Shown here in pieces: positions 15,707 to 43,171 of a stretch of DNA of 43,702 nucleotides. Source of the DNA: an uncultured Geobacter sp. (GTDB lineage Bacteria; Desulfobacterota; Desulfuromonadia; Geobacterales; Geobacteraceae); assembly GCA_903925075.1 (NCBI GenBank), contig CAIYDQ010000072.1, positions 1 to 43,702 of the forward strand, in the 5' to 3' direction. The position numbers and the translations under genes were made by a program. Below the pieces are notes generated by a model that had not been told where the DNA came from, did not search any database, and saw nothing but the letters and a program-made list of their open reading frames with translations. Position 1 is the first letter of the stretch; each line of letters starts with the position of its first letter.

Positions 15707-17209
15707 ATGCAACTTATTGAATTTCAAGGGAGATGTCAAATAAAAACGGCCGCGACCCTTCAGAAAGTCCTGTTTGTCACTCCCCCGTATCACAGCGGCG
15801 TGGATGAAATTGCCGGTCGCTGGATTCCCCTCGGTCTGGTCTATCTGGCCGGCGCCGTTCGCCAGGCGCAGCTTGCCGCCGAAATCTACGACGCCATGGC
15901 CAAGGGTCACGGCTGGAGCGAGATCGAAGAGCGCCTGCGCCGGTCGCAGGCCGATTACGTGGCCTGCTCCGCCCTCACCGCGACCATCGACGATTCCCTG
16001 AAGACCCTGCAATTGGCCAAAAGGATCAACCCGCGGACCGTGACCATCCTGGGCGGCGTGCACCCGAGTTTCATGTACGAAGAGGTGCTGGCAAGCTCGG
16101 CCGCGGTCGACTATATCGTGATCGGCGAGGGGGAAGCCACCTTGCGCCATCTGCTGGAGGCGCTGCAAGCCGGCGCGGACCCGGGGACGGTGCCGGGCAT
16201 CGCCTTTCTGCGGGACGGCGCACTGGTGAAGACCGCCGGCCGCCCTTTGCTGGAGAGCATCGACGAGCTGCCGGCCGCCTGGGACCTCTTGGAGTGGGCG
16301 GACTATTACAGCCTGGTGATTACCGGCTCCCGCCTGGGCGCCGTCAGCACCTCCCGCGGCTGCGATCACGACTGCACCTTCTGCTCGCAGCAGAAGTTTT
16401 GGGAGAAGAGCTGGCGCGCCCGCGATCCCCGCAAAGTCGCCGACGAGTTGGAACTGCTGTACAAAAGCTACCAGGTCAACGTCTTCCTGATTACCGACGA
16501 GTACCCCACCAGGGACGCTCGGCGCTGGGAAGCCCTGCTCGACGCCGTCATCGCCAAGGAGCTGCCGATCCATCTGTTGATGGAGACCAGGGCGGCGGAC
16601 ATCATCCGCGACCGGGAGATCCTTTGGAAGTACCGAAAAGCCGGGATCATCTACATCTCCTTCGGCATCGAGACCGCCGACCAGTCCGCCCTCGACGCTC
16701 TGAAAAAGGAGCAGGTGAGCGACGAAGTGAAACAGGTCTTCGATCTGCTCCGGGAGGAGGAGATCGTCTCCGAGGCGTCCTTCATGGTCGGTTTTCCCGA
16801 CGAAACCCCCGAGAGCATAAAAAAGACCATGCAACTCGCCCAGCAGTACAATCCGGACATCGCCAATTTCTTCACCTTCACCCCCTGGCCGTATGCGGAC
16901 GGCTATCGGGAGCTCGAACCGCTGATCAGCGTCCGGGACTATGCCAAATACAACATGGTCGACCCGGTCCTTGAGCCGCGCCGGATGAGCGCCCTGCAGA
17001 TAGACGTGGCCATCGCTGACGGCTACCGTCGCTTCTACATGGCGAAGATCATGGAATTCATGACCATGAAGGCCTCCTTCAAGCGGGACTTCCTGATGCG
17101 CATCACCAAGCTGTTCATGGGGAGCCCCTTCGTGATGAAGAAGCTGCGCATCGGCATCCTCGGCAAGATTCCCGCCAAAATCGAAGAGATGAGGCGTGGC
17201 AAGGGGTAG
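15707..17209 (+). CDS. BchE-like B12-binding radical SAM protein
   Basis: Read from the ATG at 15707 the protein is 500 residues. It has a cobalamin-type N-terminal domain of BchE style ('KVLFVTPPYHSGVDEIAGRW', 'LGGVHPSFMYEEVL', 'YIVIGEGE'). The radical SAM motif CDHDCTFC follows (cysteines about 219, 223 and 226), with 'YISFGIETAD' and 'SFMVGFPDETPE' after it. BchE itself closes ring E of Mg-protoporphyrin in anaerobic phototrophs, but no other bacteriochlorophyll gene is present here, so the substrate is open. The first ATG has no ribosome binding site. An ATA codon at 15740 has GGGAG seven bases upstream, so the true start is uncertain. A homologue lies at 19790. Confidence 0.82.
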   Translation: MQLIEFQGRCQIKTAATLQKVLFVTPPYHSGVDEIAGRWIPLGLVYLAGAVRQAQLAAEIYDAMAKGHGWSEIEERLRRSQADYVACSALTATIDDSLKTLQLAKRINPRTVTILGGVHPSFMYEEVLASSAAVDYIVIGEGEATLRHLLEALQAGADPGTVPGIAFLRDGALVKTAGRPLLESIDELPAAWDLLEWADYYSLVITGSRLGAVSTSRGCDHDCTFCSQQKFWEKSWRARDPRKVADELELLYKSYQVNVFLITDEYPTRDARRWEALLDAVIAKELPIHLLMETRAADIIRDREILWKYRKAGIIYISFGIETADQSALDALKKEQVSDEVKQVFDLLREEEIVSEASFMVGFPDETPESIKKTMQLAQQYNPDIANFFTFTPWPYADGYRELEPLISVRDYAKYNMVDPVLEPRRMSALQIDVAIADGYRRFYMAKIMEFMTMKASFKRDFLMRITKLFMGSPFVMKKLRIGILGKIPAKIEEMRRGKG

Positions 17210-17757: not shown

Positions 17758-18468
17758 ATGGTGAATGGAACTGTGCTGATTGTCGAGGACGACCGCAACA
17801 CGGCGGCCCTGGTCGCTACCTACCTGGAACGGGAGGGGTTCGCTACGGTGGTGGTCCACGACGGCGCTCTGGCGATTCCCGCCGCCGCCCAGTGCAACCC
17901 GGTGGTGGTGATCCTCGACGTGATGCTCCCCAACGTGGACGGCTGGGAGATCTGCCGAACCATGCGCAAGAGTTCGGATCTGCCGATCCTGATGCTGACC
18001 GCGCGCGAAGAGGAGGTCGACCGGGTGGCGGGGCTGGCGATGGGCGCCGACGATTACGTGGTCAAACCGTTCAGCCCGCGGGAACTGGTGGAACGGGTAA
18101 AGGCGATCCTGCGCCGCAGCAGACCGGCCGCCCTGCTCCCTGCCGCCACCGTGCTCTCCTTCGACGGTCTGGAGCTCGACCCCGAAAAACACAAGGTGGT
18201 CCGCGACGGCCGACCGGTGCCGCTCACCTCTTCCGAATATAAGATCCTGCTCGCCCTGATGTCCTCGCCCGGCCGGGCCTTTTCCCGGGAGGAACTGCTG
18301 GACCAGTGCTACCGGCGCGGCGAGGCGGTCATCGACCGGGTGATCGACGTCCACATCGGCAAGCTGCGTCAAAAGATCGAAGACGACTCGGCCCGCCCCC
18401 GCTTCATCCTTACCGTGCGCGGCTACGGCTATCGGTTCAGCGACGAGAGCGGCGAACCGGCGGATTAG
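17758..18468 (+). CDS. OmpR-family response regulator (BaeR-like)
   Basis: This 236-residue regulator has a receiver domain (about 1-120) with the acidic pair 'EDD' near residue 10. The phosphorylation site is Asp54 in 'VILDVMLP', followed by 'MLTAREEE' and Lys in 'VVKPFSPREL'. The C-terminal winged-helix DNA-binding domain (about 140-232) has 'LTSSEYKILLALMSSPGRAF' and ends 'RGYGYRF', typical of OmpR/PhoB regulators. The histidine kinase gene begins directly after its stop. Its targets may include the direct repeats at 19622-19660. Confidence 0.92.
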   Translation: MVNGTVLIVEDDRNTAALVATYLEREGFATVVVHDGALAIPAAAQCNPVVVILDVMLPNVDGWEICRTMRKSSDLPILMLTAREEEVDRVAGLAMGADDYVVKPFSPRELVERVKAILRRSRPAALLPAATVLSFDGLELDPEKHKVVRDGRPVPLTSSEYKILLALMSSPGRAFSREELLDQCYRRGEAVIDRVIDVHIGKLRQKIEDDSARPRFILTVRGYGYRFSDESGEPAD

Positions 18469-19548
18469 ATGAGACAGCGCCTGCTCTGGAAACTTTTGAT
18501 CGGCCACATCGTCCCGGTCTTCGCCTGCATCGCGCTGGTGGTCTGGCGCTCCGTCGACCGGCGGGCGTCCGAGTATTACCGGATGCTCTCGGCCCGCTAC
18601 CAGATCGCGCCTGCCGACGCGCATCGCCTCTTTCTGGACGCCATCCATCGGGACTTGATCCTGGGAACCACGGCGACGCTGGCGCTGACGCTCATTTTGA
18701 CCTACCTGTTGACCCGCTGGGTATTGCGCCCCCTGTTCCAAATAACCGCCAGCACCAAGCAGGTCGCCGACGGCAACTATTCCGAGCGCGTCAAGGTGGT
18801 TTCCCGCTACGAGGTCGGGCAGTTGGCGGACGCTTTCAATCACATGGCCGAGAACCTGGAGAAGATCGAGGCGCTCCGAAAGAACATGGTGGCCGACATC
18901 GCCCACGAACTGCGCACCCCGCTCACCAACCTGCGCGGCTACCTGGAGGGGCTGAGCGACTCGGTCATCCCACCTTCGCGGGAGACCTTCCGCATGCTGG
19001 AGCAGGAGGTGCTGCGGCTCGTGAATCTGGTCGAGGATCTCCAGCAACTGGCCAGGGCCGACGCCGCGCGCGCCTTCTTGCAGCGCCAGGAACTTTCCCT
19101 GCATGAACTGCTGGAACAGATCATGGATCTGTACCGGCCCAACTTTCAGGAGAAGGAGATCGAGGTGCGCTGGCATCTGGAGCCGGGAAGCGAGCTGGTG
19201 ACCGGCGACCGCGACAAGTTGCTGCAGGCCATCCGCAACCTGGCGGACAACGCCTGGAAATACACGCCGCGCCAGGGAACCGTCACCGTTTCGGCGCTGC
19301 GCGAGGAGGACGGCGTCAGGACCGTCTTCGCCAACTCCGGCGCGCTGGTAGCCGCCAAGGACATTCCCTACCTGTTCGAGCGCTTCTTTCGGGCCGACCG
19401 TTCGCGCTCCCGGTCGCGGGACGCCGGCGGCGCCGGCATCGGGCTGGCGATCGTCAAGGAGTTGATCGAGGCGCACGGCGGCACGGTTGGCGCCGAGAGC
19501 GACCAAAACGGCACGCGCGTCTGGTTCACGCTGCCGGCTTCCAGGTAA
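18469..19548 (+). CDS. Sensor histidine kinase with HAMP domain
   Basis: The kinase is 359 residues. The two membrane helices (about 10-27 and 63-84) enclose a short periplasmic loop of only about 35 residues, so the sensed signal may be in the membrane or reach it through a partner. A HAMP linker (about 85-135) is followed by the dimerisation and phosphoacceptor box 'VADIAHELRTPLTNLRGYL' with His146. The ATP-binding N, G1 and G2 boxes follow ('NLADNAWKY', 'GAGIGLAIVKELIEAHGG'). The ATG abuts the regulator's stop codon. Together they form a complete two-component pair. Confidence 0.92.
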   Translation: MRQRLLWKLLIGHIVPVFACIALVVWRSVDRRASEYYRMLSARYQIAPADAHRLFLDAIHRDLILGTTATLALTLILTYLLTRWVLRPLFQITASTKQVADGNYSERVKVVSRYEVGQLADAFNHMAENLEKIEALRKNMVADIAHELRTPLTNLRGYLEGLSDSVIPPSRETFRMLEQEVLRLVNLVEDLQQLARADAARAFLQRQELSLHELLEQIMDLYRPNFQEKEIEVRWHLEPGSELVTGDRDKLLQAIRNLADNAWKYTPRQGTVTVSALREEDGVRTVFANSGALVAAKDIPYLFERFFRADRSRSRSRDAGGAGIGLAIVKELIEAHGGTVGAESDQNGTRVWFTLPASR

Positions 19549-19789: not shown

Positions 19790-21256
19790 ATGAGCAAGAT
19801 TCTTTTTGTAACCGCGCCGTACCACTGCTGGGGAGTTCAAGTCGTCGGCAACTGGCCGCCGCTGCACATGGCCTATCTCGCCGGCGCCTCGCTGGAAGCG
19901 GGCCACGAAGCCAGAATTTTCGACGCCATGAACAAGGGGCTCACCTTCGACGACATCAAACTGGAGATCGAAAGATACCAGCCCGACTTCGTCATGACTC
20001 TCGACTACCTGCCGGTGACCGGCGCCATCAGCACCGCAACGGTCCCCGACGCGCTGAAGATCCTGGACATTACCAAAGAGATCAATCCGGCCATCGTCAC
20101 CCTTTTGGGCGGACCGCATCCGACCTTCATGTTCAACGAGATCCTGGAAGACGACCGCAACCACGTCGACTACATCATCAAGGGCGAGCCTGAGCAGACC
20201 CTGAAGCAACTGCTGGCGGCCATTCCCGAGGGGAAAGGCAAGACCGTCAAGGGGATCTCCTACCTCGAAGACGGCAAGGTGGTCTCCAACGCCAACCAGC
20301 CGCACATCGTGGAACTGGACGCCCTGGTGCCGGCCTGGCACCTTTTGGACTGGGACGACTACCAGTACCGGGTGGCGCCCGAGGGGCGGATGGCTTCCAT
20401 CCTGACCTCGCGCGGCTGCGACATGGCCTGCGCCTTTTGCAGCCAGCGTATGTTCTGGCGCGAAGACTGGCGCTGCCGCAAGCCCGAGAAGGTCGTCGAG
20501 GAGATGGCCTATCTGATCGACACCTATCAGATCGCCTTCTTCACGCTGATCGACGCCTATCCGACCAAGCACCGCGATCGCTGGGAACTGTTCCTCGACC
20601 TGTTGATCGAGCGCAAGTTCGGGGTCCATCTGCTGATCGAAACCCGCGTGGAAGACATCATCAGGGACGCCGACATCCTGCACAAGTACCGCGAGGCCGG
20701 CATCATCCACATCTACATCGGCGCCGAGAGCGCCGACAAGGACACCCTGAACAGCCTCAACAAGGGGACCAGTTTCGAGCAGAACAAGCTGGCCCTGGAC
20801 CTGTGCCGCGAGAACGACATCATCACCGAGGCCTCCTTCATGATCGGCTTCCCCAACGAAACCTGGGAATCCATTCAGAACAACATCGACTCCGCCATCT
20901 ACCTCAATCCCGACATCGCGGTGTTCCCGGTGGTGACCCCCATGCCGTTCACGCCGATCCACGCCGAGATGAAGGACCGGATCAGGGTCTGGGATTACTC
21001 CAAGTACAACCTGGTCACCCCGATCATCGAACCGTTCGCCATGACCATGGAGGAGATCACCCAGGCGCTGGGGACCTGCTACATGCAGTTCTACAGCAAC
21101 AAGGCCCCGGAGATCGTGGCGCTGGAAGACGGCTTCAAGAGGCGCTACATGCTGAGCGCGTTCAAACTGATGATGAAGGATCACGGCAAGTCTTTTGATT
21201 TCTCCGCCTCGGGCATGCCGATGCATTTCACCACGGACACCTTCAAGAGCTACTGA
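19790..21256 (+). CDS. BchE-like B12-binding radical SAM protein
   Basis: This 488-residue protein has a BchE-like cobalamin domain ('ILFVTAPYHCWGVQVVGNW', 'LLGGPHPTFMFNEIL', 'YIIKGEPEQ'). The radical SAM motif CDMACAFC follows (cysteines about 210, 214 and 217), then 'IHIYIGAESADKDTL' and 'SFMIGFPNETWES'. The glutamate of the usual 'GEGE' is kept only in part (GEPE). GGGAGA lies four bases before the ATG. It is homologous along its length to the protein at 15707-17209 and has a two-component system between the pair. No chlorophyll genes are nearby, so the reaction is unknown; methylation or oxidative cyclisation of a small molecule is the family's range. Confidence 0.85.
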   Translation: MSKILFVTAPYHCWGVQVVGNWPPLHMAYLAGASLEAGHEARIFDAMNKGLTFDDIKLEIERYQPDFVMTLDYLPVTGAISTATVPDALKILDITKEINPAIVTLLGGPHPTFMFNEILEDDRNHVDYIIKGEPEQTLKQLLAAIPEGKGKTVKGISYLEDGKVVSNANQPHIVELDALVPAWHLLDWDDYQYRVAPEGRMASILTSRGCDMACAFCSQRMFWREDWRCRKPEKVVEEMAYLIDTYQIAFFTLIDAYPTKHRDRWELFLDLLIERKFGVHLLIETRVEDIIRDADILHKYREAGIIHIYIGAESADKDTLNSLNKGTSFEQNKLALDLCRENDIITEASFMIGFPNETWESIQNNIDSAIYLNPDIAVFPVVTPMPFTPIHAEMKDRIRVWDYSKYNLVTPIIEPFAMTMEEITQALGTCYMQFYSNKAPEIVALEDGFKRRYMLSAFKLMMKDHGKSFDFSASGMPMHFTTDTFKSY

Positions 21257-21433: not shown

Positions 21434-21814
21434 TCAGGCCTTCATGCGCATCATCCCCGAAATGGCGCCGCTGAAAAAGGCCACCAGCCAGCAGCTGTAG
21501 ATGCTGAGGCTGACGCGGTGAAACACGCGGTTGACCGCCTCTGTCTTGTTGGCTACCGAGGCGACCAGCGCCAGCAGGAAATGAAAGGCCATTCCGCCCA
21601 GCGAGGCGATGCCGGTGATGTTATGCCACTCCGGCGCCTTGCCGTAGGTTAGAGCGAACAAGCTCATCTGTCGGGTGCCGAAGTAATCGAACAACAGGCC
21701 GATCCCGAAAATAATCAAATGTTTGCGGTGCAGTCCCTGTTTACGTCCGCTAAAGACCGCCCAGGTATAAAAAACCAGTGCCAGGTTCATCCAGATTACA
21801 GCCTGTGCAAGCAT
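21434..21814 (-). CDS. Four-helix membrane protein (HsmA/TIGR03987-like)
   Basis: This 126-residue, strongly hydrophobic protein has four predicted membrane helices (about 3-20, 33-50, 68-90 and 103-122). The motif 'KHLIIFGIGLLFDYFGTRQM' and the conserved-looking 'HNITGIASLGGMAFHF' with histidines resemble the family I know as HsmA/TIGR03987. I cannot confirm the match, and the biochemical role of that family is not something I can state. A purine-rich GAGGGA lies before the ATG. A terminator at 21852-21884 separates it from the upstream repeat-protein gene, so it probably has its own promoter. Confidence 0.6.
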   Translation of the reverse strand: MLAQAVIWMNLALVFYTWAVFSGRKQGLHRKHLIIFGIGLLFDYFGTRQMSLFALTYGKAPEWHNITGIASLGGMAFHFLLALVASVANKTEAVNRVFHRVSLSIYSCWLVAFFSGAISGMMRMKA

Positions 21815-21851: not shown

Positions 21852-21884
21852 AAAAAAACGGGAGGAGATCAACTCTCCCCCCGT
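21852..21884 (-). terminator. Rho-independent terminator of the repeat-protein gene
   Basis: On the minus strand ACGGGGGGAGA pairs with TCTCCTCCCGT (one G-U pair) around a five-base loop, followed by seven T. It lies 45 bases after the stop of the gene at 21930-25148. Confidence 0.9.
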
Positions 21885-21929
21885 CTAAATAATGCAGCTT
21901 ACATCGGACGCTCAGCGCCCGTCAACAAG

Positions 21930-24900
21930 TTAATTCCAGACCAAAGAGCCGGTCACCGAACCGACGGGGTAAGTGACCGCGCCGCTGGTGTTGCCGTTGG
22001 GGTAGATCGAGGAAACGTTGAGGCCGTTGACCGGGAACAGCATCGCTCCCGCCAGCGAACCGGGGGGGAAGAAGACCCCGCTGGCCACGACGCCCGTAGG
22101 GTAGCTGACGGTGCCGCTCACCGAGCTGACCGGGAAAGCGATGCCGCCGACTATGGTCCCCGCAGGGTAGCTGACCCCGCCGATCACCACGCCGTTGGCG
22201 TAGGTGGTGCCGCCGATCACCGTACCGGTCGGGTAGGTGGTGCCGCCGACCACGGTGGCGGTCGGATAGTAGACGCCGCCGATCACGGAGCCGGTCGGGT
22301 AGCTGACGCCCCCCATTACCGTGCCGGTCGGGTAAACGGTGCCGCCGCTTACCTTGCCGACCGGGAAGGCGATGCCGCCGACGATGGTTCCCGCCGGATA
22401 GCTTACCCCGCCGATCACTATGCCGTTGGGGTAGGTGGTGCCGCCGACCACCGTGCCGGTCGGATAGGTGACGCCGCCCACGATGGTGGCGGTCGGATAG
22501 TAGACGCCGCCGATCATGGTGCCGGTCGGATAGCTGATGCCGCCCATCACGGTGCCGCTCGGATACACGAGCCCGCCGCTGACGGTGCCGACCGGGAAGG
22601 CGATGCCGCCGACGATGGTTCCCGCCGGATAGCTCACCCCGCCGATAACAATGCCGTTGGGGTAGGTGGTGCCGCCGACTACCGTGCCGGTGGGATAGGT
22701 TACGCCCCCCACCACGGTGGCGGTCGGATAGTATACGCCGCCGATCACGGTGCCGGTCGGGTAGCTGATGCCGCCCACCACGGTGCCGGTCGGATAAACG
22801 GTCCCGGCGTTGATCTTGCCTACCGGGAAGGCGATGCCGCCGACAATGGTGCCGGCCGGATAGCTGACGCCGCCGATCACTACGCCGGTGGGATACACGG
22901 TGCCGCCCAGGATCGTGCCGGTCGGGTAGACGGTGCCGCCGACCACGGTGGCGGTCGGGTAGTAGATGCCGCCGATCACGGTGCCGGTAGGATAGCTGAT
23001 GCCGCCGATTACCGTGCCGGTCGGGTACACGGTCCCGCCGTTTACCGAGCCGACCGGGAAGGCGATCCCGCCCACCACGGTGCCCGACGGATAGGTGACT
23101 CCGCCGATAACCACGCCGTTGGGATACGAGGTCCCGCCGATCACGGTGCCGGTCGGGTAGGTCACCCCGCCGATGACGGTGGCGGTCGGGTAGTAGACGC
23201 CGCCGATCACGGCGCCGGTCGGGTAGGTGATGCCGCCGATCAGGGTGCCGGCCGGATAGCTGGTAGAACCGGCCACGCCGCCGGTGGGATAAACGGTGCC
23301 GCCGGCAGCTACGCCGCTGGGATAGGTGACGTCGCCGACCACGATGCCCGACGGCACGGAAATAGCGCCGATGGAGATGCCCGAGGGAGTGATCACTCCG
23401 TTGACAACCGTGCCGGTGGGATAGGTGGCGTTGCCGATCACCACGCCGCTCGGGGGGGTCAAACCGCCGGTGGCCGCGCCGACCGGGAAGGCGACGCCGC
23501 CGACCACCGTACCCGCGGGGTAGCTCACGCCGTCGATCACCACGCCTGCGGGATAGGTCAGGCCGCCGATCACGGTGCCGGTCGGGTAGGTCACGCCGCC
23601 GCTCACGGTGGCGGTCGGATAGGTGACCCCGTTGATCACCGCCCCGCTCGGGTAGCTGATGCCGCCCATGATGGTGCCATCGGGGTAAGGCGCGCCGGTG
23701 ACGATCGCGCCGGTGAATACCGCGTTGAAGGTCACGCCGACCACGTTGGCGTTGCCGACGGTGACCGATTGCGTAGCCGGGGTGAAGGTGTAGAAGCTCG
23801 ACGCGCTCGGGCGCAAGGTGAAGGTGCCCGGAGCGATGCCGGTCAGGGTGAAATTGCCCTGATCGTCCGTTTTAGCGGTGGTGCTGCCGATGCTGACCGA
23901 GGCGCCGGCAAGTCCCCCGCCGGTAGAGAGGGCGATGTTGCCGGAAACGCTGTAGGTCACGGTCGGGGTGGTTACCGGAGCCGAGATGTTGCTGGCGACC
24001 GAGAAGTTGTGCGCGACGTCGAAGGCAACCACCTTGTAGGTGTAGGTCGTCGAACCGGAGGCGGTGGTGTCGCTGTAGGCGGTGGCCAGAGGGCTCACGG
24101 TATCGATGATCAGATAGTTCTGGGAGGAGTCGGCACGGTAGATCACGTAACCGGCCAGACCGGTGCCGCCCGTGTTGTCGAGCGACGGGGTCCAGGTAAG
24201 GGAAATGTTCTGCGAGGTGACCGCCGAGGCGGTCACCTTACCCGGCGCGCTCGGGGCGGTGGTGTCGGTCAGGTCCGGCAAGACCGGAGCCGTGGTCGCC
24301 ACCGCGTCGATCGAACCGAGCATCGAGCCGGACTGGAAAGTATCGGGAAGGGCGCCCTGATTATTCAGGTCCACCACCACGGCGTTCACGGCGGTGGTGA
24401 GGGTAGCGGCCATGGTACCCAACCCGCTGCCGCCGGGCTGCAGATCGGCGGCAAAGGCCGAGAGGGTGACGGTGGAGTCGCTCGCCTGGGCGGCGGCCAG
24501 CGCCTGGATGAACACGGTCAATTGCGCGTTGGTCGGGGTGGTGTCGGCGGCGGTCGCCGGCGGCGGCACCTGGTCGAAGCCCAGTCCGAAAAACGCCTCC
24601 AGGGTGACTGTGGCCGTTCTCACGCTCTCACCCAGGGTGCCGCTCAAATGCTCGGTGGCGAAGAGGAAAACGGTCTGGGTGGCCACGGAGACCATGGTCT
24701 GCGGGATGACAGCGCTGCTGGCGTTCCCCTGCGAGACCACCGAATAGATGGTGTCGTCCAGGGTTGAGGCGAACACCAGCTTGGCCAGCGAGGGCGCCAG
24801 TTTCGCCAGCGCCCCGGGCTTGGCCTGGATCAGCACGGCGCTGGTGGTATTGGCCGGAATCTGCAGCGTATAGGCGCCGTTCAGGTCGGTGTTGACCGAA

Positions 24901-25148
24901 TAGAGGCTGATCGGCTTGGTCGGGTCCCAGACGCCGGTTTGGCTGATGGCGAAGGCGGTGACCTTGGCGTTGGCTACCCGCAGGCCGTTGCTGCCGGAAA
25001 CAATGCCGGAGAGAGATTTTGTCGCGGTGACCGCGGCAGTAGTTGTCGATAATTGAGAGCTGCCCGAACCACCGCATCCAAAAAGGAGCAGTGACAAAGA
25101 GGCGAGCAGGAATGCTCCGACCGAGAACCTCTTCCAGTTGTTACGCAT
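21930..25148 (-). CDS. Large surface lipoprotein with FN3 domain, carboxypeptidase-regulatory domain and 53 x 11-residue repeats
   Basis: The 1072-residue protein begins with a lipoprotein signal ('LLLFGC', Cys25). Residues about 26-295 are an uncharacterised Ala/Thr-rich part containing a carboxypeptidase-regulatory-like segment. A fibronectin type III domain follows (about 300-392, 'LTWTPSLDNTGGTGLAGYVI'), then a second regulatory-type beta-sandwich (about 395-480). Residues 486-1068 are 53 gap-free units of pattern x-x-Y-P-x-G-x-x-x-G-G. AAGGAGGAG lies five bases before the ATG. It is likely anchored in the outer membrane and exposed. It follows the porin-cytochrome genes on the same strand but after a 271-bp spacer, and so may also have its own control. 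The repeat suggests a beta-solenoid or fibre; no known family is recognised. Confidence 0.85.
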   Translation of the reverse strand: MRNNWKRFSVGAFLLASLSLLLFGCGGSGSSQLSTTTAAVTATKSLSGIVSGSNGLRVANAKVTAFAISQTGVWDPTKPISLYSVNTDLNGAYTLQIPANTTSAVLIQAKPGALAKLAPSLAKLVFASTLDDTIYSVVSQGNASSAVIPQTMVSVATQTVFLFATEHLSGTLGESVRTATVTLEAFFGLGFDQVPPPATAADTTPTNAQLTVFIQALAAAQASDSTVTLSAFAADLQPGGSGLGTMAATLTTAVNAVVVDLNNQGALPDTFQSGSMLGSIDAVATTAPVLPDLTDTTAPSAPGKVTASAVTSQNISLTWTPSLDNTGGTGLAGYVIYRADSSQNYLIIDTVSPLATAYSDTTASGSTTYTYKVVAFDVAHNFSVASNISAPVTTPTVTYSVSGNIALSTGGGLAGASVSIGSTTAKTDDQGNFTLTGIAPGTFTLRPSASSFYTFTPATQSVTVGNANVVGVTFNAVFTGAIVTGAPYPDGTIMGGISYPSGAVINGVTYPTATVSGGVTYPTGTVIGGLTYPAGVVIDGVSYPAGTVVGGVAFPVGAATGGLTPPSGVVIGNATYPTGTVVNGVITPSGISIGAISVPSGIVVGDVTYPSGVAAGGTVYPTGGVAGSTSYPAGTLIGGITYPTGAVIGGVYYPTATVIGGVTYPTGTVIGGTSYPNGVVIGGVTYPSGTVVGGIAFPVGSVNGGTVYPTGTVIGGISYPTGTVIGGIYYPTATVVGGTVYPTGTILGGTVYPTGVVIGGVSYPAGTIVGGIAFPVGKINAGTVYPTGTVVGGISYPTGTVIGGVYYPTATVVGGVTYPTGTVVGGTTYPNGIVIGGVSYPAGTIVGGIAFPVGTVSGGLVYPSGTVMGGISYPTGTMIGGVYYPTATIVGGVTYPTGTVVGGTTYPNGIVIGGVSYPAGTIVGGIAFPVGKVSGGTVYPTGTVMGGVSYPTGSVIGGVYYPTATVVGGTTYPTGTVIGGTTYANGVVIGGVSYPAGTIVGGIAFPVSSVSGTVSYPTGVVASGVFFPPGSLAGAMLFPVNGLNVSSIYPNGNTSGAVTYPVGSVTGSLVWN
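21945..23693 (-). repeat. Coding repeat array: 33-bp units in 231-bp super-repeats
   Basis: The DNA encodes 53 successive 11-residue units without insertion or deletion. From about unit 15 to unit 49 the units recur in a fixed order of seven (for example VYYPTATVVGG, VTYPTGTVVGG, TTYPNGIVIGG, VSYPAGTIVGG, IAFPVG-type, TVYP-type, ISYPTG-type). This gives five 77-residue (231-bp) super-repeats. The 'AFPVG' unit returns at units 20, 27, 34, 41 and 48. The units before 15 and after 49 are more diverged, a pattern expected from duplication in the middle of the array. Confidence 0.92.
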
Positions 25149-25419: not shown

Positions 25420-26823
25420 TTAGAACCAGCTGCCGCCCGGATGGTTGAGCACGTGACAGGCCACCGTACAGGAACTGGCCAAGCCTCGTGCGTACCCGAG
25501 CGCGTCCCGCAAGGTCTTGTCGGCGGTCGCCGGCCGCTTGTTGCCCGGGCTGAGCGTGGCGAAATGCAGCGGCAACGCCGGGAGCGCCGGCACTATGGCC
25601 AACTTGTTGCTGTCGTGGCAGCTCAGGCACTGGATCCCCTGCAGCCGGTGGAAGATGTGCAAAGTGGCCGAGCCGTCTCCCGCCACGTGGCCGGAGGAGT
25701 TGCTGTTGAACTGGCCGCTTTCGGTATGGCAGTTGGTGCACGTGGACAGGTTGAAGCTGCCGGCGTCGCCCCATTTCACCGTTTGGCCGCCGTGGCAGCT
25801 GACGTTGGAGCAGGCCAACAGGTTCGGGTCGAAGCTGGCGGCGCCGCTGGCCGCGTTGAAGGTCCCCAGCACGTCGACCACGGGGTCGCCGACCGTAGCG
25901 TGGTTCGGGTCGATCCTGCTGAAAGCGGTGGCGGTGGCCGCGTTGTCGTGGCACGTCGAGCAGGTGACCTGCCCGTTGGGAAGGCTCAGGTGCTGGGCGT
26001 GGGCGCCGAAGCCGGTCGGCGGCAGGCTGACGTGGCAGGAGCCGCAGCCGCTGGGCTTCGCCACCGGGCTGCTGACATGGCAGGAAAGCCCGTAGCGCGC
26101 GGTGTCGGGGTTCAAGCAGGAAGGCGCGCTATCGAGGCTGACCACGCCGGGGTCGCCGGTTGCGTGGCAGAGCGCGCAGGAACTAAGGGTCTGTTTTCCC
26201 TTGACGCCGACGGCGCTGGAATAGCCGTGGAAGTTGGCGGACACCGTCTTGGCCCAACCGGTGGGATGGCCGAGCTTGCGGTCGAGGTTCGGATGGCAGG
26301 CGACGCCGTTGAAGGTGGCGCTGAAGCAGCCGAGCTGCGAGACCCCGCCGGCGAGATCGGTGCCGTGACAAACCGCGCAACCGGTGGTGTCCGGGATGGC
26401 CGGTATGCCGGCGCCGGTGGTGAACAGGGTCGGGTTGGCCTGTTTGTAGGAAACCCAGTGCTGCTGCACCCAATTGGTGGGATGGCCGAGCTTGCGGTCC
26501 GCGTTGGAATGGCAGGCGACGCCGTTGAAGGTGGCGCTGAAGCAGCTCACCTTGGAAACCCCGCCCAAGAGATCGGCGCCGTGGCATTCCGCGCAACTGG
26601 TCGAGTCGATCAGGGGCGCGATGCCGTTAGTGGCGGCCAGGTTTTTGTTGAGCTGCTTGTAGGCGCCGGGGTGCTGCTGAACCCAGTCGACAAAGCCGGG
26701 CGCGACCACGTGCTTGCCGGCGGAATCGATCGCCGCCGGCGCGCCGCTGTTGCTGTTGCTGCATGCAGACAGCGCAGCCAGTGTTAGGGTAAGGAAACTT
26801 ATCTTGATCAAAGCTGTCCGCAT
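25420..26823 (-). CDS. Multiheme c-type cytochrome lipoprotein with atypical CXnCH motifs
   Basis: The 467-residue protein has a lipoprotein signal ('LAALSAC'). It contains seven standard CXXCH haem motifs (CAECH, CAVCH, CALCH, CGSCH, CSTCH, CTNCH, CLSCH). It also has CTVACH (CX3CH), CSNVSCH (CX4CH), two copies of CFSATFNGVACH (CX9CH) and one CX11CH. The CX4CH...CXXCH pairing matches the Geobacter GSu_C4xC__C2xCH style. Residues about 40-180 are two tandem copies of a roughly 70-residue block, each with one CXXCH and one CX9CH. AGAGAGG lies eight bases before the ATG at 26823. It is probably outer-membrane and surface-exposed, passing electrons out from the porin conduit. Whether the long-spaced motifs bind haem is unproven. 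Confidence 0.88.
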   Translation of the reverse strand: MRTALIKISFLTLTLAALSACSNSNSGAPAAIDSAGKHVVAPGFVDWVQQHPGAYKQLNKNLAATNGIAPLIDSTSCAECHGADLLGGVSKVSCFSATFNGVACHSNADRKLGHPTNWVQQHWVSYKQANPTLFTTGAGIPAIPDTTGCAVCHGTDLAGGVSQLGCFSATFNGVACHPNLDRKLGHPTGWAKTVSANFHGYSSAVGVKGKQTLSSCALCHATGDPGVVSLDSAPSCLNPDTARYGLSCHVSSPVAKPSGCGSCHVSLPPTGFGAHAQHLSLPNGQVTCSTCHDNAATATAFSRIDPNHATVGDPVVDVLGTFNAASGAASFDPNLLACSNVSCHGGQTVKWGDAGSFNLSTCTNCHTESGQFNSNSSGHVAGDGSATLHIFHRLQGIQCLSCHDSNKLAIVPALPALPLHFATLSPGNKRPATADKTLRDALGYARGLASSCTVACHVLNHPGGSWF

Positions 26824-26837
26824 ACGCATATCCTCTC

Positions 26838-27311
26838 TTAATGGTGGCAAACGACGCATCGCTCGTTGTTGGCTCTGCCGTGGCAGCGGTAGCAGCTCGC
26901 CGGGTCAAGTTTGCCTTCGATTTTGTGCAGGGTAAGGAAATCGCCCCGATGCGGCATCATCCGGTCGGGACGGTTGCCGTACTTAAGCGACGGCTTCATG
27001 GCCGCCAGGTTGCTGTGGCAGTCGGCGCAGAAGGAGGTCTTGTGGCAGGTCGCGCAGAGCACGTCGTCGGTCGCCGCGTAGAACCGGTGGTTCTTGATGA
27101 AAGTCTGGGTGTGGTTGAAGGCCGCGAACGGCTTCATGGTCCCTTTCTGCTGGTCCTCGTGGCACTCCGCGCAGCTCACCGGCCCGGCGGCCAATTGCTC
27201 GGGATGCGAGCTCGGCAGGTTGGGCAGCCCCTTGAATTGGGCGCAGGCGGCGACCGCCAGCAGTAGTCCGGCTAACGCCAGGAAGTTTTTGATATGCGCG
27301 CACCGTCTCAT
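26838..27311 (-). CDS. Pentaheme c-type cytochrome lipoprotein
   Basis: This small protein of 157 residues has a lipoprotein signal ('LLLAVAAC', Cys23) and five CXXCH motifs: CAECH, CATCH, CADCH, CYRCH and CVVCH. There are further histidines suitable as sixth ligands ('FNHTQTFIKNHRFY', 'MMPHRGDF', 'LTLHKIEG'). Haem is attached after Sec export, so it works in the periplasm or outer membrane. Its ATG overlaps the stop of the porin gene by four bases, strong evidence that the two are made together. In conduit complexes a small cytochrome commonly sits inside or beside the barrel; that role here is inferred. Confidence 0.9.
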   Translation of the reverse strand: MRRCAHIKNFLALAGLLLAVAACAQFKGLPNLPSSHPEQLAAGPVSCAECHEDQQKGTMKPFAAFNHTQTFIKNHRFYAATDDVLCATCHKTSFCADCHSNLAAMKPSLKYGNRPDRMMPHRGDFLTLHKIEGKLDPASCYRCHGRANNERCVVCHH

Positions 27312-28660
27312 TTCGTGGCTCCTTTTCCGGCGGTCAGGTTGTAGGTCAAGCGGACCAGCCCTTTAAAATCGTCTCTGTACTGCGGGTTCTGTCCGTAGCT
27401 CAAATCCCCGGAAAGGGCGAGGTCGGTGGTCAGGTGGTACCCCAGCGAGCCCTGCGCCTCCCAGGCGCTGTCCCGATTCTCCACCGGCTTGTCGAACAGG
27501 TAGCCGATCAGGTCGAGCGAGGCGAAATATCCCTTGGTCTCGTGCATGGCCCAGCCGCGCAGCTCGTGGAAGGAGCCCGAGGTGTTGGGTACGTTCGGCA
27601 CTACGGCGAACTCGGAGCCGGCGCGCAGGTAATGGTAGCCGAAGCCGCTTCTCACCGAGTTGTCGGCGAAGTAGCCGCGCAGCTCGCCGCCGAAGCGCTC
27701 CGCCTCGCCGATGTCGCGCCGGTAATCCTTGAAGTCGCAGGAGATCTCGACCTTCTGGATGGTGTAGGTGGCGCTGCCGCCCAGCACGCGCGACTCCTGC
27801 GAGAGGTTCTTCAGGAAGTCGGTCCCCGAAAACAGCGCGGAGGAGTAGAAGTAGTCGCGATCCCGATGGTGGTCGTAGCTGCCGGCCAAAACCAGGTTTT
27901 TCAAGGGGGTCAGTTGCAGCAGGTAACTATGCTCGGCGAAACGATCGGTCTGCGTGTTGTAGCTGGAGTGGCCGGAGAGCTGCACCATGTTCAGCGGCGA
28001 CAGCCAGACATCGGCGCCGATCAGTCGGTGGCTGCCGTACGCCCCCTGAAGGACCGTGGGAGTCCCGGTCGGCTGCACCGGCCTCTTGCTCTCGGTGACG
28101 CCGGACAACCCCAGCTCCAGCTTTCCTGCCAGGCGGTAGTTCAGCCGGCCGCCGGCGATGCCGTCCCCCTTGCCGTCGGAGTTGGCGTGCGGGATGTTGA
28201 TGGTGTGGACCGTCGCGCCGCCGAAGGCGGAGAAGCCGAAGCCGTAAGGAAGATCGGTGCGGAAGCTCGCCCCGTCCACCTGCTCGTTGACGACCCCCTC
28301 GTTGATGAATATGCGCCCGGCCCGCGCCCGCGCGTTGGCTTGATCGAAGCGGTACTGCAGATAACCGTAATTGAGGCTCCCCTGCAAGGTCTCGTTGCCG
28401 TCGGTGGTCGGCTTGGGATCGCCCAACTGCGCCGTCCCCCAGCCGTAGGCGTGCACCGAGAAGTTTCCGGAGCTGTAGTCGACGCCCAGGAACTCGGTGA
28501 GCGGCGCCAGCCCCCTGGTGCCGGAGTCGGGAACCGGGGACTGAGCTTCCTGCTGGAAGCGCATTATGGTGGTCGAATCCACAGATCCCTCCGCGAAGGC
28601 GAGGGCAGGCAGGCCCGCGATCAAAATGGCTGGTACCAGCCGGCATAACATTTTCTTCAT
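27308..28660 (-). CDS. Outer-membrane beta-barrel (conduit porin-like) protein
   Basis: The protein is 450 residues with a Sec signal peptide ending 'LPALAFA'. The mature chain shows many alternating amphipathic strands with aromatic ends ('GSLNYGYLQYRFDQANARAR', 'LNYRLAGKLELGLSGV', 'VEISCDFKDYRRD') and finishes with 'LVRLTYNLTAGKGATK'. This is the pattern of a large outer-membrane barrel. It has no haem motif. AGGAG lies eight bases before the ATG at 28660. Coupling to a pentaheme cytochrome and a further multiheme lipoprotein suggests the barrel of an electron conduit, comparable in organisation to OmbB or ExtB of Geobacter. No sequence match to those was tested. A -24/-12 promoter lies about 200 bases upstream. 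Confidence 0.8.
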   Translation of the reverse strand: MKKMLCRLVPAILIAGLPALAFAEGSVDSTTIMRFQQEAQSPVPDSGTRGLAPLTEFLGVDYSSGNFSVHAYGWGTAQLGDPKPTTDGNETLQGSLNYGYLQYRFDQANARARAGRIFINEGVVNEQVDGASFRTDLPYGFGFSAFGGATVHTINIPHANSDGKGDGIAGGRLNYRLAGKLELGLSGVTESKRPVQPTGTPTVLQGAYGSHRLIGADVWLSPLNMVQLSGHSSYNTQTDRFAEHSYLLQLTPLKNLVLAGSYDHHRDRDYFYSSALFSGTDFLKNLSQESRVLGGSATYTIQKVEISCDFKDYRRDIGEAERFGGELRGYFADNSVRSGFGYHYLRAGSEFAVVPNVPNTSGSFHELRGWAMHETKGYFASLDLIGYLFDKPVENRDSAWEAQGSLGYHLTTDLALSGDLSYGQNPQYRDDFKGLVRLTYNLTAGKGATK

Positions 28661-28859
28661 ATAAGCTCTCCTGTCGCTGTAGGTAAGCATTGCAAGGCTT
28701 GGTGAAATAGCGGCTTTTCGGTCAGGCCTCCGGTGAAACCACGGAGTTGCTTTATGCTCCCCGCTGCCGCGGTGGTAGCGCCAAGGCAGCCTCGGCGCGC
28801 ACCTAGCACGATTGAGCAAGTTCGCTGCAGCGCCTATTCTCAGGCCGGTACCTATCTAT

Positions 28860-28994: not shown

Positions 28995-31184
28995 CTACGG
29001 ACGCTCGATGGTGGTCCAAACGCCGGCGTTGGTCTGCAGTGCGTTGTCGGCGGTGGAGGTGGAACCGGAGCGGGTCCAGCCGATCAGGTACAGCATCGCC
29101 TCGGAGGTGCCGGGAGCGATGGTGGTGATCGGGTAGCTGGTGCCGGTCTTGACGGTGTCGGCATTGTAAGCCCTGGCGCCTTTGGCGAACAGCGGCTGGC
29201 CGTTGGCGTCCAAGAGGCCGGAGGCGACTGCCGTGGCGCCGACGGAGAGGTTGATGACGCCGTCGTCGAGGAAGTCGATGGCGTCGTACAGGAGCCTGCG
29301 GGAGTAGCTGCGGGCGTGGGCATAGGCCGCCGGGTCCTTGGTGAGCACCTGAATGTTGAAGCAGGCGCCCATCAGCTTCTTGCCGATGACCTGACTGCCG
29401 GTGCCGTTGGTCCAGTTACTGACTGCGTTGGCGCTCGTGTGAGCCAGGCCGCCTTTGAAGAAGTAGGGGTAAGCGGCGGCGTCGTACTCGATGTTGTAGT
29501 TCTTTTTCAAGAGCGAGACGGCCAGCGTCAGGGCGGCCTGGTAGGCCTCGCCCTGCGGCTCGACGAACACGGTCTTGAAGTTGGCCGAAGTCAGCGGCAC
29601 GGTGTTTTCCGAACCGTGGCAGTTGGTGCAGACCTGGTTGTAGGCGTTGGCGTCGATCGCCAGGGTGTGGCCGTGGGCGGCGCGGTCGCCGGCCGGAGCG
29701 TTGAAGGCGTTCATGTGGCAGGTCACGCAGGGGCCGTTGGCGTCCAGTTGGCCCTTGATGAAGACGGCCGGGTTGTGGCTGTCGCCGTTGATCATCGGGG
29801 TGCCGAGCTTGCGGTGGGTGCTGGTCACGCCGCCGGCGATGCCGTAGGCGGGCACCGAGACGTTATCGGCGGTCAGCGACTTGCCGTAGGTGGAGGTGCC
29901 GAACGCGGCGGAGGCCGAGGTGAACTGGGTGAAGCCGGTGGACATGTACATCAGGCCGGCAGCCGGCAGGTAATGCGAGTTCTTGAACGAGGCCTTGGTG
30001 AAGTCGGTGACCGCGTCCACGCCGTTCTCGCGAGCGGAGTGGCAGGCGATGCACAGGTTGGACTCGCCGGCGTCAGGGAAGGCGACGGTTTTGCCGCCGA
30101 TGGTGTACTGGGCGGTGAAGGGGCCGGGCTGGCGGACGTCGAAGCCGTTGTTGCTGTGGCAGGCGTCGCAGGCCAGCACTTCGCGCGCGGAGTCGCTGGC
30201 GGTGGCGACCGAGTCGCCCTGGTACACGGTGAACTTGCTGACGGCGAAATTCTTGAAGCCGGTCGCGGTGTGGCAGCGCTGGCAGGCTGCCTGACCCGGT
30301 TGCTGCATGTCCTCGGTGGACCAGGCGGCGCCGTTCACGTCGCCGTGAGCGGACTGAGCCCAAGCCTGACGCTCGGCGGAGCCGACGCCGTCCAGCGGGT
30401 TGTGCGGCTCGTGGCAGGCGGAGCAGTTGTTGCGGTAGTTGGTGGCCACGTACATGGCGGGGCGCGCTACGGCGCCGGTGAGGCTGTTGGAGTGCACCGG
30501 GTTCAGGACCGAGCCGTGGCACTCAAGGCACCTGCCGTTGGCGGAAGGGGTCGGGTCGTTGTGCGACGGGCCGTGGCAGCCGGCGCAGCCGGTGCCGGTC
30601 ACGCCGTACTTGGCGGCCATGGTCCAGGACGTGTTGGAGTAGTGGCCGGACTGTTTGAAGTCGGCAACCAGGCTCTGGCCGGAAGCGTCCAGCGTCGTCT
30701 CATGGCAGCTGACGCAGGAGGCGTCCTGGTCTTTAACCAGCGGCATCGACAAGGCGATGGTGCCGACGTCGGTGGTGGCTCCGGCCTTGACCACGGCGTT
30801 GAGAGCAGCCCCTTCGTAAAGGACCTTGCCGGTGGCGTCGAGCGCCTTAACCGTCATAGTCACCTTGCCGGGATACACGCCGTTCACGGTGCCGCCGGTG
30901 GTGGAGCCGGTGACGGCGATGGTGTTCCTGACCACGGGAATCGCGCCGGTGGCACCCGTGCCGACCACGGTGAACTGGACGCTGGCGACGCCTACGGGCA
31001 CGGCGGCGACGGCCTTGGCCGCGCTCTTGCCGGCCTGGGTCCCCCACGACATTTTTGCCGTGAGCGAACCGGACGCGCCGTTGTCGGGTGCGAGGGCCGT
31101 GTTGTTGGCGCCGCAGCCCGTCATCGCCATGAGCAGCATGGACAACAACAGAAATGGAAGGCTACTGAGGCAAAATCTCTTCAT
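28995..31184 (-). CDS. Nonaheme c-type cytochrome lipoprotein
   Basis: The 729-residue protein has a lipoprotein signal ('LLMAMTGC'). A beta-sandwich-like N-terminal domain follows (about 40-150), then nine CXXCH motifs: CVSCH, CAGCH, CLECH, CSACH, CQRCH, CDACH, CIACH, CVTCH and CTNCH. A long haem-free C-terminal region of roughly 180 residues ends at 'NAGVWTTIERP'. AAGGAG lies nine bases before the ATG. The protein is probably fixed to the outer membrane and could hand electrons to metals, other cells or further cytochromes. It follows the lipoprotein gene at 31281-32834 in the same direction with a 96-base gap and is closed by a strong terminator. I cannot assign it to a named Omc protein. 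Confidence 0.9.
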   Translation of the reverse strand: MKRFCLSSLPFLLLSMLLMAMTGCGANNTALAPDNGASGSLTAKMSWGTQAGKSAAKAVAAVPVGVASVQFTVVGTGATGAIPVVRNTIAVTGSTTGGTVNGVYPGKVTMTVKALDATGKVLYEGAALNAVVKAGATTDVGTIALSMPLVKDQDASCVSCHETTLDASGQSLVADFKQSGHYSNTSWTMAAKYGVTGTGCAGCHGPSHNDPTPSANGRCLECHGSVLNPVHSNSLTGAVARPAMYVATNYRNNCSACHEPHNPLDGVGSAERQAWAQSAHGDVNGAAWSTEDMQQPGQAACQRCHTATGFKNFAVSKFTVYQGDSVATASDSAREVLACDACHSNNGFDVRQPGPFTAQYTIGGKTVAFPDAGESNLCIACHSARENGVDAVTDFTKASFKNSHYLPAAGLMYMSTGFTQFTSASAAFGTSTYGKSLTADNVSVPAYGIAGGVTSTHRKLGTPMINGDSHNPAVFIKGQLDANGPCVTCHMNAFNAPAGDRAAHGHTLAIDANAYNQVCTNCHGSENTVPLTSANFKTVFVEPQGEAYQAALTLAVSLLKKNYNIEYDAAAYPYFFKGGLAHTSANAVSNWTNGTGSQVIGKKLMGACFNIQVLTKDPAAYAHARSYSRRLLYDAIDFLDDGVINLSVGATAVASGLLDANGQPLFAKGARAYNADTVKTGTSYPITTIAPGTSEAMLYLIGWTRSGSTSTADNALQTNAGVWTTIERP

Positions 31185-31280: not shown

Positions 31281-32834
31281 TTAGAATTGGATGATTACGC
31301 CGCCCCCACCCGAATTGGGCGCCAAAGCGGTGAAGTCGACCCCCTTGTCCGCGCCGTTCACCAACAACACCGGCGACTCGCTGAAGATGGAACCGGCCAA
31401 GGTCGGCGTCAGCGTGTAGAAACCGTTGGGGATGCCGCTGATGGCGTAGTTGCCGGCGGCGTCGGAAAACGCGCTGAAGCTCAGCTCGGCGCTGGTCACC
31501 GGCCCGGTGTAGGTCGCCAGCGACTGCGAGGTCAGCTTGGCGGTGAGGGTTATTTTGACGTTGGCAAGCGGTGCGACGGCGCCGATGTTGGTCACGTTGC
31601 CGGAGAGCTTGAAGGTGGCGGCGTCCGCGGCGAAGTCGGCGAAGGCGTGGTCGCTGTTGATGGTCACCGTCCTGCTCGCCGGGGTGAACGCCACTGCCGC
31701 CGCCGTATAGATGTTGTCGCGGGCGACCGTGATCACGTAGTCACCGTTGTTCAGGCCGCTGATGGAGTAGTTGCCGACGCCGTCGGTGACGCCGGTTACC
31801 GAGAACACGGAGCCGACGCGTTTGGCGGTCACCGTTACCCCGGCAAGGCCCGCTTGATTGCCGCTCGTCACCCGTCCGGAGACGGCCTGGGGTTGGGGAG
31901 CCACCGAAGCCAGAAAGTCCGGCACGCTGCTGGCGCCGGTCACGCTTAGGGTCGAGTTGGCCTGGTCGAACAGGTAGCCCGCCAAGGAGGGGGTCACCGT
32001 AAAGCTCCCCTGCGGGACGCCGCTCAGCGCGTAGCTGCCGTCGGTCGCGGTCTGAGGGCTGCCGTAAACCGTGCCGGTTGCGGTGTCGGCGACGGTCACC
32101 GTAACCCCGGCAAGCCCGGCGCCGGCCAAGAGCGCCTTGCCCGAGACGGTAAAGGTGGCGAAGCCGCTTCCCAAAGGATAGGAGAGCGCGGTGCCGGTGG
32201 TCGGGGTGACCGTGGCCGCGCCGCTAGTCGCATCCACCGAGATCTTCGCCGCGTCGAACACGGCGTCCAAACCGGTATGGTTCGCGCTGTAGGCGGCGGT
32301 GATCGGGTTCACGGCGGCAACGCCCGCGGCCGTAAGCTGGGGTTTCAAAACGGCCTGCACTCCCAGGAGGGATTGGGCAACGTTGTTGGATATCGCCTGC
32401 AAAGAGGCGCCGGGAGCGGCATAAATGTTGTCGAGGTTCGCGCCCGCTCCCGCGGCTACGGCGGCGTTGGCCAGCACCAGGTTGCTCATCGGGTTGATGT
32501 TGGCCGTTCCCGCATCGGCGGCCAGCGAGTAGAGGGTATAGGGAGTGCCGCCGGCCGTGTTGCCGACGACCCTGAGCATGAAGGGCTTGGTCCAGGTGGT
32601 CGGCAGGTCGAAGGAGAAACTGCCGTCGGTGGTGGTTTTCGAGAGCGTATGGAGAGCGGCGGCCGAGTCCTCGATGGAGACGGTGCCGGTAATGACGGCG
32701 CCCGCGGCGGCGACGCCTGATACCGTTTGAGCCGGTGCTGTTGCGCTACCGCCGCCACCGCCGCCGCATCCGGCGATAAAGAACAAAATGGAGAGCGCGA
32801 TACCTGCCTTTCTTTGCCACATAGATTTGATCAA
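31281..32834 (-). CDS. Lipoprotein with carboxypeptidase-regulatory-like repeats
   Basis: The protein is about 517 residues with a lipoprotein signal ('ILFFIAGC' followed by six glycines). After an Ala-rich part it has at least three beta-sandwich modules of the carboxypeptidase-regulatory type, each ending in a signature such as 'DGSYALSGVPQGSFTVTPS', 'VGNYSISGLNNGDYVITVA' or 'AGNYAISGIPNGFYTLTPT'. It carries no haem motif. It is the first gene of the nonaheme-cytochrome operon and is presumably a surface scaffold or adhesion partner. I prefer a TTG start at 32834, with AAGGA nine bases upstream, over an ATG at 32822 without a good site. Both give the same lipobox. Confidence 0.78.
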   Translation of the reverse strand: MIKSMWQRKAGIALSILFFIAGCGGGGGGSATAPAQTVSGVAAAGAVITGTVSIEDSAAALHTLSKTTTDGSFSFDLPTTWTKPFMLRVVGNTAGGTPYTLYSLAADAGTANINPMSNLVLANAAVAAGAGANLDNIYAAPGASLQAISNNVAQSLLGVQAVLKPQLTAAGVAAVNPITAAYSANHTGLDAVFDAAKISVDATSGAATVTPTTGTALSYPLGSGFATFTVSGKALLAGAGLAGVTVTVADTATGTVYGSPQTATDGSYALSGVPQGSFTVTPSLAGYLFDQANSTLSVTGASSVPDFLASVAPQPQAVSGRVTSGNQAGLAGVTVTAKRVGSVFSVTGVTDGVGNYSISGLNNGDYVITVARDNIYTAAAVAFTPASRTVTINSDHAFADFAADAATFKLSGNVTNIGAVAPLANVKITLTAKLTSQSLATYTGPVTSAELSFSAFSDAAGNYAISGIPNGFYTLTPTLAGSIFSESPVLLVNGADKGVDFTALAPNSGGGGVIIQF

Positions 32835-33107
32835 TTCCGTTTTTCCTTTTTGCTGGGTGTTGCCTGTTTTCAGTGGTGCCATGAAGCGCGTTCTTAATTT
32901 GTGGGGCTATCTCATAGAACATCTCCTGTGCTTTGGGGGTCGAACTTTTGGTGAAAAGGCGGCGAGATCGCCATTGAACTGCGCGATAACGCCGAGCCCG
33001 GGGGTGTCGCGCCGACGCCGCCGGGAGTGGAGTGCCGCGGCGCGCGCCTGTTCCGGCAGTTCCCCCCTGGACGCCATTCGGCTTTTTGGCGTGTCCTACT
33101 GATCCAT

Positions 33108-42370: not shown

Positions 42371-42430
42371 TTTGAAACCTCCTCTGACTGTAGTGGTGAG
42401 GTTGCACGTTCCCTGGTCCGCCAGGGAGCG

Positions 42431-43105: not shown

Positions 43106-43171
43106 GTTCTCTTCTCCTCTTGTAAGTCCTGAAGTTCCTTTGATCACCTCTCCGGGAAAAGACATTGCAGA

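Follow-up and report, generated by a model that had tools for sequence, protein, structure and literature searches.

A conserved 11-residue repeat array with a seven-unit cassette in a lipoprotein of Geobacterales porin-cytochrome clusters

A lipoprotein gene adjoining multiheme cytochrome genes in an uncultured Geobacter sp. encodes a C-terminal array of consecutive 11-residue units, and this array is a conserved, nearly uncharged repeat family that has so far been found in Geobacterales conduits only. An ordered module of seven units within the array, the cassette, is ancestral by comparison of orthologs and dates back as far as the remainder of the gene, and its pattern of divergence indicates purifying selection. 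The probable role of the lipoprotein in the electron-export machinery is that of a non-redox arm, structural or binding, and not that of a wire. The DNA analysed (the window) is the whole stretch of 43,702 nucleotides, positions 1-43,702 of the forward strand of contig CAIYDQ010000072.1 in assembly GCA_903925075.1.

The lipoprotein and its repeat array

The gene (21930..25148, minus strand, as are all features of the protein given below) is an open reading frame of 1072 residues for which orthologs were found. It begins with a lipoprotein signal peptide and lipobox (25074..25148), whose Cys25 is invariant in 9 aligned orthologs, and continues with an N-terminal part (24255..25073) predicted, from the model of ortholog L045, to fold into a transthyretin-like beta domain and then a helical domain; array-less lipoproteins homologous to this part also exist. 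There follow a fibronectin type III-like stretch (24012..24251, residues 300-379; 23.8 bits, below the cut-off of 25) and, immediately N-terminal of the array, a CarboxypepD_reg domain (23730..23951, residues 400-473). With 38.8 bits for the latter (cut-off 32.3) and the lipobox Cys25, the protein has both marks of a CarboxypepD_reg lipoprotein, and it is likely an outer-membrane lipoprotein located at the cell surface. The terminator-like hairpin 3' of the gene (21856..21886, minus strand) is a consensus match only, in a region with 15 such sites where 9.2 are expected. An HsmA-family protein (87.9 bits, cut-off 78.2) is encoded directly after the array gene at 21434-21814 on the minus strand.

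The array (21945..23693), as defined by unit parse and lag identity, occupies residues 486-1068 of 1072 as 53 consecutive 11-mers with 0 indels, so that the count of 53 gap-free units and the coordinates given in the preliminary description are exact. The clear repeat reported there is borne out by a lag-11 identity of 0.503, against a mean of 0.135 and a maximum of 0.173 in residue shuffles (n=500), and by a lag-77 identity of 0.678; the five mid-array blocks of 77 residues described with it are recovered by Tandem Repeats Finder as a 231-bp period in 5.0 copies with 84% matches, and a sixth, diverged copy can now be added. Among 480 units parsed from 18 distinct orthologs including that of the window (one stray L034 unit outside its array being counted), an aromatic residue stands at unit position 3 in 436, charged residues amount to 79 of 5280, and Cys is absent.

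Sequence searches agree with the preliminary description that no named family is at hand, i.e. none in Pfam, NCBIfam, PHROG or the PDB sequences covers the array. The sole Pfam match to the window array is Phage_phiJL001_Gp84_N (16.8 bits, cut-off 26), no NCBIfam or PHROGs family matches it above cut-off, a PDB sequence search with it yields nothing up to E 10, and the profile A2 finds 8 PDB matches, all with E of at least 0.24 and 5 of the 8 being antibody chains. Among twelve 77-residue array pieces, scored by E-value only, Tcp10_C matches two (best E 1.1e-7) and MORN_2 likewise two (best E 5.4e-4). Neither family reaches its Pfam cut-off in the whole proteins scanned: the best whole protein for Tcp10_C (cut-off 36) is ortholog L038 with 23.3 bits, the window protein giving no match, and for MORN_2 (cut-off 29.6) whole L038 scores 13.9 bits.

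An ordered seven-unit cassette

The sixth copy of the block is formed by units 2-8 (23430..23660), which give the best leave-one-out match, at residue 497, and mark the ancestral position of the cassette; its amino acid identity to the five tandem cassettes of units 15-49 (22077..23231; Tandem Repeats Finder and cassette comparison) is 0.65-0.74. The same ordered seven units are present in orthologs with short arrays. A leave-one-out profile, applied without a pattern to all 18 orthologs, though built from the same ten cassettes that had been picked by pattern, scores the cassette order higher than every one of 300 shuffles of the unit order in 13 orthologs out of 18, including L043 at a modest score of 11.8. 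The order is borderline in L037 (4 of 300 shuffles) and absent in L036, L038, L039 and L041 (157, 38, 252 and 258 of 300 shuffles, respectively). In the 13 ordered orthologs the best or first high-scoring cassette starts at array unit 1 to 5, and in the window three of the five tandem copies, in addition to units 2-8, score above 20. Ortholog L036 repeats a four-unit block of 44 residues (L036:9540-10607; lag-4 identity 0.636) instead of a seven-unit one.

The pattern used to select the ten cassettes for identity comparisons fixes positions in units 1-4, which biases their identity figures upward. In phase they are 0.749 identical over 45 pairs, against 0.53-0.57 in the six other phases, where identity remains this high because the cassettes are repetitive, with phase 0 scoring highest in every one of the 45 pairs. 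Units 5-7, beyond the reach of the pattern, are 0.645 identical in matching slots (n=135) and 0.444 in non-matching ones (n=270), while the units right after the cassette fall to 0.538 from the 0.749 within it. Slot 6, also outside the pattern, reads A-F-P in at least 9 of the 10 cassettes, a conserved Phe taking the place of Tyr.

Comparison across families (16 pairs, the window and L033 each paired with the eight others) gives 77% identity for the cassette and 38% for the N-terminal part, the fairer like-for-like control being the cross-family out-of-phase cassette identity of 0.55-0.59. Differences at fourfold sites, in codons with the same first two bases, are about equal (0.67 in the cassette, 0.72 in the N-terminal part). 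This combination of conserved protein sequence and comparable silent divergence points to an old cassette kept by purifying selection, and a recent transfer of the cassette alone was rejected on the same figures. The five window copies among themselves differ with dN of 0.04-0.20 and dS of 0.32-0.51.

Distribution of the array

A profile built from twelve 77-residue pieces detects the array in 20 of 141 Geobacterales genomes, the window's own counted, and 121 of the 141 are without it; the raw count was 21, from which G055 was removed as a single chance motif. Inspection of the G055 match (E 1.9e-4) and of a second match in G004 (E 2.1e-4) led both to be dismissed as chance; apart from these two weak matches and pieces of this gene lying on other contigs, the array profile finds nothing in the 141 genomes outside the present gene. 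Some part of the protein is matched in 38 of 97 related genomes, 12 array-bearing members of which were taken with their surroundings, and named carriers include Geomesophilobacter sediminis Red875, Geomonas sp. Red32 and Geobacter sp. UBA9964. In a 395-genome sample of the phylum the matches are confined to the window's own genome and a short, weak one in G400 (E 4.3e-4, 36 positions within a 77-residue frame). A search with the narrower alignment A3 yielded 14 loci, of which 8 were already known and 5 new; the remaining one, L057 of Rubripirellula (10001-10123), was dropped as a chance resemblance, being a short tandem DNA repeat that is unit-like in a stop-filled frame. No relatives were obtained from 75 pattern matches in a scan of genome contigs with the single protein, nor from 29 in viral contigs.

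Array length ranges from 10 to 108 units across orthologs. The 11-residue period, on whose conservation in relatives the preliminary description had let its reading hinge, is nevertheless kept: 451 of 461 neighbouring unit steps in the 18 orthologs are 11 residues and the other 10 are 12, under a parser that allowed 11-13 only, and a scan of 13 orthologs without a limit on step size shows, within the arrays, steps of 11, 12, 22, 23 and 33 but never of 10. The array of L055/L104 continues in another frame beyond residue 1515, which suggests a frameshift or an assembly break.

The porin-cytochrome neighbourhood

The gene directly follows porin-cytochrome genes, as had been noted at the outset, and this neighbourhood is kept in relatives. 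All on the minus strand, the window cluster comprises a lipoprotein-type cytochrome (25420..26859; 7 CXXCH and 2 CX3-4CH motifs), a small cytochrome with 5 CXXCH motifs and a lipobox-like start (26838..27311), a porin-like conduit protein at a conserved position (27308..28819; true start probably nearer 28663), a 9-CXXCH cytochrome with a lipobox-like start (28995..31184), the counterpart of which is the next gene after the array gene in most relatives, and a CarboxypepD_reg-domain protein (31281..32882) that also occurs in the cluster of several relatives. The porin-like protein of the window matches no Pfam family and no PDB chain, and its assignment as a putative porin follows from position and from sub-threshold OMP_b-brl and Porin_4 matches in L036, one of three porin homologs scanned.

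Multiheme cytochrome genes adjoin the array gene in 19 of 19 array-bearing relatives. The surroundings are recognizably those of a porin-cytochrome cluster, with a porin homolog in the same stretch in 17 of the 19, a pentaheme cytochrome homolog in 18 and a 9-heme cytochrome homolog in 17; the missing homologs (L035, L052, L055, L106) coincide with contig ends. Five of the neighbourhood loci are present twice (L045, L047, L048, L052 and L055, also as L101-L105). In 15 of the 17 relatives checked, a frame with 9-10 CXXCH motifs, 697-955 residues from stop to stop, begins on the same strand 4-212 bases past the array gene. In L041 the 9-heme-type frame and the end of the array gene overlap, the homologous part of that frame starting 147 bases past the array gene, and in L055 the contig ends shortly after the array gene. 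The window differs, in that its 9-heme gene is upstream of the porin gene and without contact to the array gene. Three stretches of the same genus (L108-L110) have the porin and pentaheme homologs together with a fibronectin-type lipoprotein that is homologous to the N-terminal part of the window protein and array-less; the array is thus an optional extension, and the rod dispensable for some such conduits.

Geobacter conduits are described as consisting of a porin, a 5-heme and further lipoprotein cytochromes, with the outer lipoprotein often replaced, and ExtC and ExtD as having 5 and 12 heme sites, in the available text of PMC6148476. The Ext conduits of Geobacter sulfurreducens (ExtABCD, ExtEFG) share with the window the succession in a row of porin, pentaheme lipoprotein and further lipoprotein cytochrome, whereas the further cytochromes of the window have 7 plus 2 atypical, and 9 hemes; the likeness to ExtABCD is one of gene order and heme counts, as far as the text of that source goes. 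The words "repeat" and "fibronectin" have 0 occurrences in the main text of PMC6148476, as have "fibronectin", "lipoprotein" and "repeat" in that of PMC12133095. In the available text of the open-licence literature on Geobacter porin-cytochrome conduits, Geomonas, PgcA, beta-solenoids and undecapeptide repeats the present protein is not described.

Elsewhere in the window there are three genes for B12-binding radical SAM proteins on the plus strand (15707-17209, 19790-21256 and 37541-39217), the second of which matches the BchE model with 407 bits, below the cut-off of 481. A response regulator and histidine kinase pair (17758-19548, plus strand) is flanked by two of these radical SAM genes, and a papain-family peptidase (41594-43165, minus strand) adjoins a CBM_21 starch-binding protein.

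Fold of the array

A beta rod is the fold suggested for the array by a strand-rich but low-confidence model. In two AlphaFold runs, on the window protein and on an ortholog, the CarboxypepD_reg, fibronectin-like and N-terminal domains are confident and the array is not (block-mean pLDDT about 35-70); the modelled units mostly have two short strands each, interrupted at Y-P-x-G and G-G. In the model, strand periodicity is strongest at 22 residues (0.87, against 0.75 at 11), although even and odd unit lags in the window array are equal (0.503 and 0.504), so that a coil of two units is unsupported by the window sequence. If coils stack at an assumed 4.8 angstrom, the 53 units would span between ~13 nm, at two units per coil, and ~25 nm, at one. 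The beta-solenoid proposed in the preliminary description is a candidate fold compatible with this low-confidence strand pattern, and the regular, indel-free coil length typical of such folds is seen in 53 of 53 window units and in the near-constant step of the orthologs.

Foldseek matches of the window model fall mainly on the CarboxypepD_reg domain, and of the 50 PDB matches listed only 3p4g, a beta-helical region of an antifreeze protein from an Antarctic bacterium, is of array length. It aligns over 376 columns, hence across the array, at rank 46, but with probability 0.38, rmsd 14.3, TM 0.14/0.22 and 14% identity, and it is calcium-dependent according to its title; there is no evidence of kinship with the array. 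The full-length ortholog model is matched in the PDB largely by immunoglobulin-like domains in series (Gram-positive pilins, SdrD and fibronectin among them). The viral library gives array-length matches of poor superposition to a Gaeavirus Peptidase S74 domain protein (E 8.2e-7, TM 0.23/0.19), an uncharacterised Ostreococcus virus protein (TM 0.26/0.23) and A0A7D7EZL6 (TM 0.45/0.30).

As a tentative alternative to the solenoid, the array could form one free-standing antiparallel beta layer, a meander like the TCP (G-box) domain of CPAP, with one strand per unit and Y-P-x-G as the turn. That domain has repetitive strands, aromatic residues and turns often of PDG type, and lacks a hydrophobic core, in the available text of PMC3776556. 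The sub-threshold Tcp10_C matches of the array pieces and of L038, the simplest ortholog, lean the same way, as do the V, S or T that replace the GG positions in L038 and would suit a continuous strand. Whole orthologs nevertheless remain below the Tcp10_C cut-off and the window protein is unmatched, the near-invariant unit length fits a solenoid better, and the model breaks its strands at GG and repeats best at two units, not one. It thus seems possible, though doubtful, that the array is a meander.

Proposed role of the rod and alternatives

The lipoprotein may serve the porin-cytochrome conduit as a beta rod, either a scaffold or a binding arm, with the cassette as a binding surface and extra cassettes providing length or multivalency, a proposal that could hold or fail about equally well. 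The protein would be anchored in the outer membrane by its N-terminal lipid, beyond which the transthyretin-like, helical and fibronectin-like domains and CarboxypepD_reg would lead to a stiff rod of 11-residue units. The conserved cassette near the base of the rod would offer the binding surface, its likeliest ligands being the partner 9-10-heme cytochrome or matrix or mineral, and added cassettes would increase both rod length and multivalency. The repeat, its conservation, the gene neighbourhood and selection on the cassette are shown here, whereas surface position, beta rod, binding role and partner are inferred. Selection on a module without redox groups inside a redox cluster suggests recognition or spacing. 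In favor of the conduit arm are the cytochrome genes adjacent in every array-bearing relative, the selection on the cassette, the scarcity of charge and lack of Cys in the units, and the strand-rich model. Counting against it are the many Geobacterales genomes and the L108-L110 conduits that are array-less, the window's own 9-heme gene that is not adjacent, the four orthologs without cassette order and the one borderline case, and the low pLDDT of the array. A more specific version, in which the cassette is a docking site for a surface cytochrome, multiplied to string several along the non-redox rod, is rather improbable; if true, docking cassettes would be a protein scaffold that sets the spacing of an extracellular redox chain.

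An electron-related fibre, raised as speculation in the preliminary description, finds no backing here. The aromatic residue at position 3 of most units and the adjacent cytochrome genes could suggest stacked tyrosines acting as an electron-hopping ladder, but tyrosines have far higher potentials than multiheme cytochromes, the units lack Cys, slot 6 has a conserved Phe for Tyr in 9 of 10 cassettes, and the longest array (L032) becomes poorer in aromatics toward its end, leaving such a ladder very unlikely. Hardly more credible is a neutral, low-complexity expansion without function: copy number is indeed widely variable, tandem duplication obvious and cassette order wanting in some orthologs, yet the cassette is kept across families at the fourfold divergence given above, dN is below dS between the window copies, and the period persists in relatives. 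In a stronger, if still doubtful, competitor the rod would act as an adhesin that attaches to mineral, electrode or biofilm matrix, is only expressed together with the conduit and makes no cytochrome contact. Its repeats are rich in Thr, Gly and Tyr, its length varies as adhesin stalks do, and the ortholog model resembles the immunoglobulin-like strings of pilins and SdrD. PgcA, a repeat-bearing Geobacter cytochrome and predicted surface lipoprotein of the electron-transfer apparatus, binds Fe(III) oxide, but its tandem repeats are three-residue PTx units between heme motifs of one protein, without 11-residue units, in the available text of PMC5732950. Against an adhesin stand the pairing with one cytochrome type at so short a distance in 15 of 17 relatives and the confinement of the array, by profile search of the 141 Geobacterales genomes, to the present gene and its fragments. 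This tight pairing of array and cytochrome leads us to prefer the conduit scaffold to a mineral or matrix adhesin, although not decisively.

Implications

The literature on these conduits describes cytochromes and porins, in the available text of PMC6148476 and PMC12133095. The cassette is a short, conserved and expressible module that could be used in a direct search for binding partners. A non-redox rod that is apparently under fine selection, encoded within the cluster and lengthened or lost between species would represent a structural layer of the conduit.
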